Assembly: GCA_002953655.1 (NCBI GenBank)
Contig: CP025839.1
Span: 682,001-746,000, forward strand
Length of the DNA stretch: 64,000 bases
Source: Latilactobacillus sakei
GTDB lineage: Bacteria; Bacillota; Bacilli; Lactobacillales; Lactobacillaceae
Direction of reading: 5' to 3'
Shown piece after piece: positions 9,775 to 41,447 of the stretch (the stretch's first letter is position 1; every line of letters starts with the position of its first letter). Below the pieces are notes generated by a model. The model saw only the letters and a program-made list of their open reading frames with translations. It did no database searches and was not told where the DNA came from. The position numbers and the translations under genes are program-made.

Positions 9775-11100
<1,326 letters not shown>

Positions 11101-11103
11101 TAG

Positions 11104-11218
11104 GTGCGTTCGGAGCCGTTTAGGCTTTGAGGATTAACCTAAAAACAGGCGTTACGGTGGTTTTCACTGTGACGCCTGTTTTGTAGTTAACCGGAAAAGG
11201 CTGGTTCGAAAAGCCCGA
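11104..11218 (+). ncRNA. Structured element copy A (candidate RNA), with terminator-like hairpin inside
   Basis: Begins TGCGTTCGGAGCC, then TTTAGGCTTTGAGGATTAA. After an inserted hairpin it continues TAGTTAACCGGAAAA and closes with GGCTGGTTCGAAAAGC. The order of conserved blocks matches copies B (11222-11332) and C (41263-41374). AGCC/GGCT would form the closing stem. Function unknown; it lies at the 3' end of the eno transcript. Confidence 0.4.
11142..11182 (+). terminator. Terminator after eno (inside copy A)
   Basis: AAAACAGGCGT-TAC...GTG-ACGCCTGTTTT forms a stem of more than 14 pairs, ending in T4. It begins about 40 bases after the eno stop. Confidence 0.75.
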
Positions 11219-11221
11219 TGA

Positions 11222-11332
11222 ATGCGTTCGAGCTTGATTAGGTTTTGAGCATTAGCCTAGGGTTGTGAACAATTGGTGTAACCGATTGTTTGCAATGCAT
11301 AGCTAAGCGCAGAAATTTAGCTTGAAAAGCAT
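11222..11332 (+). ncRNA. Structured element copy B (candidate RNA)
   Basis: Outer arms ATGC (11222-11225)/GCAT (11329-11332) and CGAGCT (11229-11234)/AGCTTG (11319-11324). Inside are the conserved block TTTTGAGCATTAGCC, a hairpin built on AATTGGT/ACCGATT, and TAGCTAAGCGCAGAAA. Copy C replaces the second stem by GTCAGT/ACTGAC, which keeps pairing with changed bases. A terminator follows 3 bases later. Confidence 0.45.
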
Positions 11333-11335
11333 ATT

Positions 11336-11371
11336 AAAAAAGGGCATCTCATTACTGAGATGCCCTTTTTT
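11336..11371 (+). terminator. Strong terminator after element B
   Basis: AAAAAAGGGCATCTCA-TTAC-TGAGATGCCCTTTTTT: perfect stem of about 16 pairs with T-run; ends the glycolytic transcript. Confidence 0.9.
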
Positions 11372-11380
11372 ATGCTATCG

Positions 11381-21069: not shown

Positions 21070-21115
21070 AAAAAAGGAGCCCAGACAAAATTTACTTTTG
21101 TCTGGGCTCCTTTTT
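21070..21115. terminator. Terminator after opuCD
   Basis: AAAAAGGAGCCCAGACAAAA/TTTTGTCTGGGCTCCTTTTT, about 20 pairs, with runs on both sides, so it may also serve the pseudouridine synthase gene. Its core GACAAAATTTACTTTTGTC recurs exactly in the terminator at 41404. Confidence 0.92.
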
Positions 21116-40550: not shown

Positions 40551-41252
40551 ATGGATGGAAGACGCGTGGTCAATGTCGATAGCGAATCACGATTTTTTAG
40601 TAAAGTATACGGATTAATGGCTTTAGGGGTTGGTATATCAGCACTCGTTGCTGTTTTACTAGTCACAGTTTTTGCAAGTCAAACCGTAGCCATTTTAAGC
40701 AGTAGCAGTACTTGGATGGTCTGGGGATTAATGATTGTCGAAATGATTTTGGTCGTTCAGATCAGTCGCAAGGCAACCAAGAATCCGTCAGCTTCAATGA
40801 TGATGTTTATTGCTTACGCGCTGTTAAACGGCTTAACGTTTACGGTCATCTTATTAGCGTATAACATCGGTCAGATTGGTGCCGCATTTATTTCCAGTGC
40901 ATTAGTCTTTGTTGCGATGTCGGCTTACGGCCGGATGACGAAGAACAACTTAAGTGGTTTTGGGAAGTTTGCCATGATGGGCTTAATTGGGATTATTATT
41001 GTATCCCTCGTTAATGCTTTCATGGGCTCAGCTGCTATCGAGTACTTCTTATCTTATGCAATGTTAATTGTTTTCATCATTTTAACAGCCTGGGATAACC
41101 AAAAACTAAGCTTGTTATATCGTCAATACGGTTCAACTGGGGAAGTTTCAATCTCAGGATTAGCCGTGATGGGTGCTTTAACACTTTATCTAGATTTCGT
41201 TAACTTATTTATTACTATGATCCAAATCTTTGGTTTCGGTAATCGAGACTAA
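40551..41252 (+). CDS. Bax inhibitor-1/YetJ-family membrane protein
   Basis: 233 residues with seven hydrophobic helices and the family C-terminus (ALTLYLDFVNLFITMIQIFGFGNRD). YetJ of Bacillus is a pH-dependent calcium leak channel; role in lactobacilli not shown. Ribosome site AAGAGGTGA. Confidence 0.88.
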   Translation: MDGRRVVNVDSESRFFSKVYGLMALGVGISALVAVLLVTVFASQTVAILSSSSTWMVWGLMIVEMILVVQISRKATKNPSASMMMFIAYALLNGLTFTVILLAYNIGQIGAAFISSALVFVAMSAYGRMTKNNLSGFGKFAMMGLIGIIIVSLVNAFMGSAAIEYFLSYAMLIVFIILTAWDNQKLSLLYRQYGSTGEVSISGLAVMGALTLYLDFVNLFITMIQIFGFGNRD

Positions 41253-41262
41253 TTTAAAAAGA

Positions 41263-41374
41263 ATGTGTTGTCAGTGGTTAGCTTTTGAGTATTTGCAGAA
41301 CTGGGCGAATCGGTGATGAAATCACCAATTTGACAAGTTTAGCAAAACGCAGAAAGTTACTGACAAAAGCACGT
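41263..41374 (+). ncRNA. Structured element copy C (candidate RNA)
   Basis: Outer arms ATGTG (41263-41267)/CACGT (41370-41374) and GTCAGT (41270-41275)/ACTGAC (41359-41364). Inside: TTAGCTTTTGAGTATTTGC, hairpin CGGTGAT-GAA-ATCACC, then TTTAGCAAAACGCAGAAAG. Same block order as 11222-11332, with compensatory changes in both outer stems. A terminator follows 30 bases later. Lies in a 259-base gap that otherwise holds only that terminator and the padR promoter. Confidence 0.45.
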
Positions 41375-41403
41375 TTATACTAGCAACATTCGGTTATCAA
41401 GAA

Positions 41404-41447
41404 GGGGTCTGAGACAAAATTTACTTTTGTCCCAGATCCTTTTTTTA
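41404..41447 (+). terminator. Terminator before padR
   Basis: GGGTCTGAGACAAAA/TTTTGTCCCAGATCC followed by T8; shares the core GACAAAATTTACTTTTGTC with the opuC terminator. Confidence 0.92.

Follow-up and report, generated by a model that had tools for sequence, protein, structure and literature searches.

A large, apparently undescribed family of dispersed folded elements, mostly behind stop codons, in Latilactobacillus sakei

Elements in the window

The window (the whole 64,000-nt stretch of Latilactobacillus sakei DNA that was analysed) contains three copies of a structured element, A, B and C (Table 1). Copies A and B stand in tandem behind eno, the identity of which is given by NCBIfam TIGR01060 (703 bits, cut-off 300); the product is 96.8% identical to that of eno in one Latilactobacillus curvatus record. 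Copy A starts 0 nt past the eno stop codon. Copy C lies about 30 kb from A and B and starts 7 nt past the stop codon of a gene which matches no NCBIfam family at E 1e-10. All three are found where the preliminary description had placed them; the boundaries in Table 1 are those of a covariance model, R1.

The copies differ in loop type. Copy A has GAGGATTAAC/GTTAACCGG, and its inner hairpin is long and perfect; copy B has TTGAGCATTAGC/GCTAAGCGCAGAA. When the sense strand is compared with 200 dinucleotide shuffles, using the coordinates of the preliminary description or nearly those, the folding energies have z-scores of -6.5 (A), -6.3 (B) and -5.2 (C). For copy A taken alone, the energy minimum swaps part of the consensus outer stem for a local hairpin.

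Table 1. Elements and neighbouring features; positions are those of the window unless stated.
Feature	Position	Strand	Evidence and remarks
eno (phosphopyruvate hydratase)	9805..11100	+	Stop codon immediately 5' of copy A
Copy A	11101..11220	+	R1 match, 85.7 bits, E 2.2e-18
Copy B	11219..11336	+	R1 match, 109.5 bits, E 1.2e-24
Intrinsic-terminator-like hairpin GGGCATCTC..GAGATGCCC with T run	11340..11372	+	Sequence reading; directly 3' of copy B
Gene 5' of copy C	40551..41252	+	Present in 6/6 genus genomes
Copy C	41260..41376	+	R1 match, 109.7 bits, E 1.1e-24
Linker from element to terminator (ATACTAGCAACATTCGGTTATCAAGAA, variant of ATTCGGATAT tail)	41377..41403	+	Recurrent type; example of linker ACCATCAATATTCGGATATCAAAAAGG
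Terminator with recurrent core GACAAAA..TTTTGTC	41404..41446	+	3' of copy C linker
Further examples of linker ACCATCAATATTCGGATATCAAAAAGG	Genome G000: 1543427, 1558620, 1523491

Copy number, length and arrays

A, B and C are members of a large dispersed family of folded elements of about 118 nt, which is apparently undescribed. BLASTN of the A/B region against the genome that holds the window (G000, one contig, 2,103,571 bases) gives 26 matches, and copy B alone gives 34 at E <= 1. From these loci, 37 distinct copies were read; 28 of them measure exactly 118 nt from a common anchor despite widely differing letters. R1 was built from the 37 copies with MAFFT and RNAalifold and has 118 positions. 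It finds at least 143 matches in G000 at E <= 0.01 (the best 150 of 1,121 candidates were scored), and removal of 8 overlapping matches, which are antisense echoes, leaves at least 135 copies.

These 135 copies are found on both strands (68 on the plus strand), and 123 of them are 116-121 nt long. They fall into 84 clusters: 52 single copies, 17 of two, 11 of three and 4 of four. The arrays run head to tail; same-strand spacers are 5-8 nt in 43 of 47 cases, the others being -2, 0, 0 and 33. Four pairs of opposite-strand neighbours lie 64-87 nt apart and, in the listed cases, flank terminator-like hairpins. By eye, the letters at the two ends of the element look linked (AGAGTG..GTTT versus GAAGTG/TGAGTG..GTTA).

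Consensus fold and covariation

The consensus fold (MAFFT and RNAalifold) is one long hairpin with 39 pairs in six helices. Among the 37 copies of G000, two-sided compensatory changes occur at 33 of the 39 pairs. With the structure fixed, 93.7% of 1,439 cells pair, compared with 72.8% after shuffling and 27-42% with slid partners; here and below, the structure was derived from the same alignment that was tested, and this gives it an advantage over slid partners. The stems of the three window copies had been said to change in step, and this is borne out as part of a general pattern. A cross-genus alignment of 46 sequences (one from G000, a few genomes contributing two), all of them found with R1, which favours intact folds, has two-sided changes at 36 of the 39 pairs. 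In it, 94.3% of cells pair, versus 67.9% shuffled and 30-46% slid, and the covariation score is 0.722 versus 0.217. In neither alignment do any of 500 shuffles reach any of five measures. The preliminary description had proposed a covariance model and a search for more copies; the copies exist, and the covariation persists with them. Gene conversion between copies could mimic both covariation and constraint.

Conserved letters occur in several parts of the fold. CGGTTAG facing CTG makes up a bulge. In an internal loop, TGAGCATTA faces TAAGCGCAGA or TAAGCGGA; the loop is also given as TGAGCA opposite AAGCGCAGA or AAGCGGA, with a linked variant GAGGA / ACCGG. The two sides of the loop vary together: in the main, GCA goes with AGCG or AGCA, whereas GGA goes with ACCG or AACG. 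Letters of the internal loop are among the invariant columns (G29, A30, A33 and A93 in alignment A3, first-row numbering). The end letters AGAGTG..CACGTTT are conserved too. The sequence of the innermost helix is free, and its length varies slightly between genera.

Across 122 full-length copies (the 135 minus 13 with 20 or more gaps), the consensus pairs comprise 3,759 Watson-Crick, 500 G-U, 103 A-C and 334 other combinations. Because neutral decay should give equal numbers of G-U and A-C, the sense strand is the strand that is kept folded. G-T pairing is stable in single-stranded DNA too, so the strand asymmetry alone may also accommodate a role at that level.

Position relative to stop codons and terminators

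For 88 same-strand arrays, position was measured from the closest stop codon at the end of an open frame of 60 codons or more. The element starts between -3 and +10 nt from a same-strand stop codon in 62 of the 88 arrays; the antisense control gives 2 of 88. In 25 of these 62 stop-adjacent arrays, one or two letters at the start of the element belong to the stop codon. The remaining 26 of the 88 arrays start outside this range of a sense stop codon, and 15 of the 88 have an opposite-strand gene as their closest upstream neighbour. The stop-codon rule also applies to 26 of 48 arrays from other genera and families, versus 2 of 48 antisense, a count which omits arrays less than 400 nt from the end of a locus. 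A REP-like enrichment directly 3' of stop codons is thus found both in the genome itself and in other genera. The upstream proteins viewed by eye (21 of the 62) look like the products of ordinary housekeeping genes; eno alone is confirmed by family search.

A terminator-like hairpin with a T run follows within 150 nt 3' of 59 of the 88 arrays, compared with 7 of 88 when each stretch is block-shuffled once. By the same simple test 29 arrays have no such hairpin, and some of these precede the apparent Shine-Dalgarno region of the next gene. The preliminary description had all copies at the 3' ends of genes just before terminators; this is true of the three window copies but, genome-wide, each of the two features is found in a majority of arrays (62 and 59 of 88) rather than in all.

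One terminator core, GACAAAA..TTTTGTC, occurs at 28 sites of the genome, including window positions 21084-21102 and 41413-41431; the backwards control gives 0. This core often carries different outer stems. In relaxed form it lies within 110 nt 3' of 25 of the 88 arrays, and other core sites have no element found nearby. Linker type ACCATCAATATTCGGATATCAAAAAGG joins some elements to the recurrent terminator; by a simple pattern it is present in 10 of the 88 arrays, that of copy C included. Element, linker and terminator may form a longer composite module which moves as a unit.

Dispersal and turnover

Identity between dispersed copies reaches 97.4%, and it is at least 95% in 16 dispersed pairs. 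BLASTN pairs with a minimum of 100 nt and 90% identity comprise 39 dispersed pairs and 4 within one array. Tandem duplication as the sole origin of arrays is rejected on these counts and on the difference in loop type between neighbours such as A and B.

The eno locus varies within the genus. In the sister species (G005), copies A and B are both present, B with substitutions. In G003 and G004 only a terminator is seen behind eno, with no element. In G001 (L098) and G002 (L095), a hairpin lies directly 3' of eno, its ends being ATATGTT..AACATAT and its arms TTTTGAGGTTTAAC..GGTTACC; by eye, it looks like a degenerate or decayed element. G003 has 43 blastn matches to an eno-A-B query across many contigs, most of them to the copy-A part, and the copy-A subfamily, with its long perfect inner hairpin, may have expanded there.

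Turnover was followed by comparing G000 with about 535 kb of G005. Array sizes differ in both directions, for example at 788508 (1 vs 3), 462184 (1 vs 4), 1854088 (1 vs 4) and 1591045 (3 vs 1). At site 813435, G000 has an element and G005 runs from GATAAAAAA into the terminator without an element or visible remnant; the same site in G002 is about 190 nt shorter by weak alignments and has no R1 match. By sequence reading, A-rich direct repeats, AAAAAAGGAG and CAAAAAGGAG, flank the filled site. As to the marks of a MITE of a DDE insertion sequence (terminal inverted repeats of an IS and a target-site duplication), there is this one filled/empty pair with a direct repeat, and the element ends share only GTGC/GCAC. 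Sites 509543 and 1593898 have apparent element remnants in G005 and are probably deletions in that genome, and at 1566975 the G005 copy is internally deleted. Different subfamilies are found behind the same gene at 1059013. At 1558290/1558620, G005 has a plain terminator where G000 has terminator, linker and reversed element joined in a composite. Individual copies are dispensable, as is seen from the deleted or decayed copies of G005 at three sites and from the element-free eno of G003 and G004. A short hairpin, GAGTGCGTCAAAAGTGTCTATACTTTTGAAAGTACGC, lies beside a full element in G000 (about 1593840-1593897, minus strand) and in G005 (about 1023235-1023290); by eye it looks like an internal-deletion derivative which keeps only the outer stem.

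Known engines of spread were looked for in the six genus genomes. The Y1 transposase family PF01797 (Y1_Tnp) has 0 matches in G000, G001, G002, G003 and G005, and one sub-cut-off match containing two stops in G004; REP/RAYT mobilisation is therefore disfavoured for the genus. Group II intron mobilisation is disfavoured likewise, as reverse transcriptase family PF00078 (RVT_1) has 0 matches in all six. With copy B as query, blastn finds no match among 50,697 phage records and, among plasmids, two large records, both from Latilactobacillus curvatus, at about 74% identity. Carriage as phage or plasmid cargo is rejected on these results, for which blastn is a weak test given such diverged elements.

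Constraint on orthologous copies

Forty-four orthologous pairs of copies from G000 and G005 were compared; they are model-found and at least 78% identical, which favours intact folds. The elements differ at 257 of 5,139 sites (5.0%). In the 300 nt upstream, which are mostly coding, 376 of 7,641 sites differ (4.9%; 28 places, after removal of those with a difference of 25% or above). The next 70 nt 3' of the element differ at 140 of 1,418 sites (9.9%; stretches differing by 30% or more omitted). Within the element, paired columns differ at 151 of 3413 sites (4.4%) and unpaired columns at 120 of 1725 (7.0%).

The changes tend to spare the pairing. There are 62 changes of pair status, compared with 85.1 (sd 8.9) expected (9 of 2000 simulations are as low), and 66 pair-keeping single changes, compared with 52.0 (sd 7.1) expected (60 of 2000 as high). 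Double compensatory changes number 4 versus 1.5 expected (126 of 2000 as high), which is weak by itself. These figures point to constraint on orthologous copies, to which gene conversion among copies could contribute.

Distribution and relation to described families

R1 matches are found in 14 of 41 genomes of relatives, the own genome included (E <= 0.01), and in 125 of 301 genomes and 18 of 40 genera of the family (E <= 1e-4). In the order, 33 of 395 genomes have matches at E <= 1e-3, seven of them outside the family (G034, G367, G370, G405, G410, G533 and G598); the weakest order-level match is 2.8e-4, so one of these could be chance. Six further genomes have from at least 66 to at least 89 R1 matches each, some of which are possibly antisense echoes. 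The matches listed from a pattern scan of named genomes, which are not model-checked, include Lapidilactobacillus, Paucilactobacillus, Levilactobacillus, Latilactobacillus, Lactiplantibacillus, Ligilactobacillus, Loigolactobacillus, Lacticaseibacillus, Companilactobacillus and Pediococcus. One SAR324 MAG contig is also among the matches listed and is taken for chance or contamination.

The Rfam search that the preliminary description had suggested finds no matching family at gathering scores: in the window, only two tRNAs reach them. At a relaxed threshold, the best match in 551 bases around A and B scores 23.9 bits against a gathering score of 48, and 20 loci of other genera give, at E <= 0.01, one tRNA and BTnc005 at 30.2 bits (gathering score 174.8). 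Membership of a known RNA family is rejected; the low-scoring Rfam hits around A and B are far under gathering, and many fall on the terminator. No description of the element family was found in the open-access literature, a scope which mostly leaves out subscription journals. PMC2267715, in the part that bears on this, surveys stem-loop families of 40 genomes and has clusters in Lactobacillus johnsonii and Enterococcus faecalis, which could include the family of A, B and C.

Comparison with known repeats

Dispersed folded intergenic repeats are a known kind of element. What is unusual here is RNA-class covariation across many genera, combined with near-fixed length and stop-codon placement. 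The E. coli REP/BIME repeats are alike in placement and copy number, being high-copy palindromes between genes. REPs at most 15 nt from stop codons reportedly stall ribosomes, a finding ascribed to Liang, Rudd and Deutscher in 2015. A passage of PMC3733652 has REP termini often providing the stop codon, and a passage of PMC1590033 has REP RNA as thought to stabilise the co-transcribed mRNA. REPs are 20-40 bp long with a GTAG or CGTC foot, as PMC3733652 describes them in the relevant part, whereas the present element is about 118 nt long and has no such foot. Unlike REPs, it also has conserved internal loops, occurs in at least 18 genera, and keeps only a skeleton of conserved letters. It differs from the REP/RAYT system in that Y1_Tnp is unmatched in five of the six Latilactobacillus genomes.

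The nearest kind are larger repeats of gene 3' ends such as Efa of Enterococcus faecalis; Efa was compared by description. According to a section of PMC1590033, Efa and similar repeats (Ype, ERIC, NEMIS) are larger than REPs, prefer gene 3' ends and are thought to be co-transcribed, and preliminary unpublished data on Efa suggest more stable mRNA. The present element differs in being defined by a covarying fold and in spanning much of a bacterial family. The weak R1 matches in families f3, f5 and f9 of the order leave room for a link to Efa.

BOX and RUP are dispersed structured repeats of Streptococcus pneumoniae, and BOX is modular (A, B, C). They are alike in being dispersed structured repeats in Lactobacillales; compared by description, the present element differs in its near-fixed length and single hairpin. 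Group IIC introns and integron attC sites depend on folding and are associated with terminators or tandem arrays. The same can be said of the element, but no reverse transcriptase match was found in the six genus genomes.

Interpretation

Two readings had been put forward in the preliminary description, namely a folded RNA and a palindromic element that is mobile. The fold itself is strongly supported, and the RNA part of the claim is partly so, by the excess of G-U over A-C, by the gene-oriented 3'-end arrays and by the tendency of orthologous pairs to persist. Mobility has partial support too, from near-identical dispersed copies and from the presence/absence and copy-number differences between sister species. 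The two are probably not alternatives. In falling order of probability, the explanations are an RNA element that also disperses, a purely selfish element, a terminator module and a mutational by-product.

With somewhat more confidence than doubt, we read the family as REP-like elements that act as RNA at the 3' ends of mRNAs and also disperse; both their function and how they spread are inferred. Transcription is deduced from position, and the elements would act in the 3' untranslated region of many unrelated mRNAs. The fold would form in the mRNA once the last ribosome leaves. Like E. coli REP RNA, it would act as a barrier that defines the 3' end of the mRNA or, within an operon, the limit of a segment; such a barrier would give protection from nucleases or a defined nuclease entry. 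The two conserved loops are possibly read by a protein and are a candidate binding site. As a mobile palindromic repeat, the element would spread by a mechanism independent of any resident Y1 (RAYT) transposase or reverse transcriptase. Insertion would be tolerated near stop codons or targeted there (A-rich tract 5' of a terminator or of a Shine-Dalgarno sequence), and those copies that are functional would then be retained.

With the first helix 0-10 nt past the stop codon, a terminating ribosome would, given its footprint, have to hold that helix open. A bolder claim, which we consider unlikely, is that the RNA element is read at translation termination. Its first helix would stand in the footprint of the stopped ribosome and close after the ribosome leaves, and its loops would be bound by a putative protein or nuclease. 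Termination would thereby be coupled to the fate of the mRNA 3' end in dozens of genes per genome, and the element would spread without the known transposase or reverse-transcriptase systems of palindromic repeats.

It is rather unlikely that the family is a purely selfish miniature mobile element. The hairpin would then be a single-stranded DNA or double-stranded-end substrate of a recombinase acting in trans, covariation would reflect the recombinase's need for a folded substrate, and insertions elsewhere would have been purged. Near-identical dispersed copies, presence/absence and array changes, the different subfamilies at 1059013 and the A-rich direct repeats around the filled site 813435 are all consistent with this. 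So is the placing of the first one or two bases within the stop codon in 25 of 62 arrays, as for GTAG REPs in the account that a passage of PMC3733652 gives of them. However, the substitution rate is close to that of the mostly coding DNA upstream and only half as high as in the 70 nt that follow, and pairs tend to stay, unlike in dead insertions. The near-fixed orientation (62 vs 2 of 88) is unexplained by purging alone. The six genus genomes have no intact Y1 transposase and no reverse transcriptase, and the blastn search with copy B, a weak test, gave no phage record and only the two L. curvatus plasmid records.

An accessory role in termination seems quite improbable. Element, linker and GACAAAA..TTTTGTC hairpin would together be a composite, perhaps bidirectional, terminator, in which the long hairpin blocks interfering structures or Rho entry. 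This would suit the terminator-like hairpins 3' of 59 of the 88 arrays (25 with the relaxed recurrent core), the composite at 1558290/1558620 in G000 where G005 has a plain terminator, and the four opposite-strand neighbours 64-87 nt apart, in the listed cases around such hairpins. Against it, 29 arrays have no terminator-like hairpin, some of them standing before an apparent Shine-Dalgarno region; the element itself has no T run, and the recurrent core occurs also where no element is found.

Palindromes are known to be corrected by template switching and gene conversion, and the outer arms of one copy (L025) resemble, by eye, two subfamilies joined, which suggests recombination between copies; a mutational by-product, in which such events at quasi-palindromes keep the arms complementary without selection, is nevertheless very improbable, because the mismatched internal loop should be repaired too, yet its letters are among the invariant columns, and because the asymmetry of G-U and A-C, the near-constant length and the stop-codon position would be left unexplained.

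Significance

If the favoured reading, an RNA element of mRNA 3' ends that also disperses, is true, an RNA fold with strong covariation, absent from Rfam and mostly located at a defined site of the mRNA, is present in much of a bacterial family of food and gut. R1 is a covariance model that can be used for annotating Lactobacillaceae genomes. The filled and empty sites between sister species are a natural experimental set in tractable bacteria. The role of folded repeats at mRNA 3' ends, and their spread in genomes without RAYT transposases, would thereby become testable.
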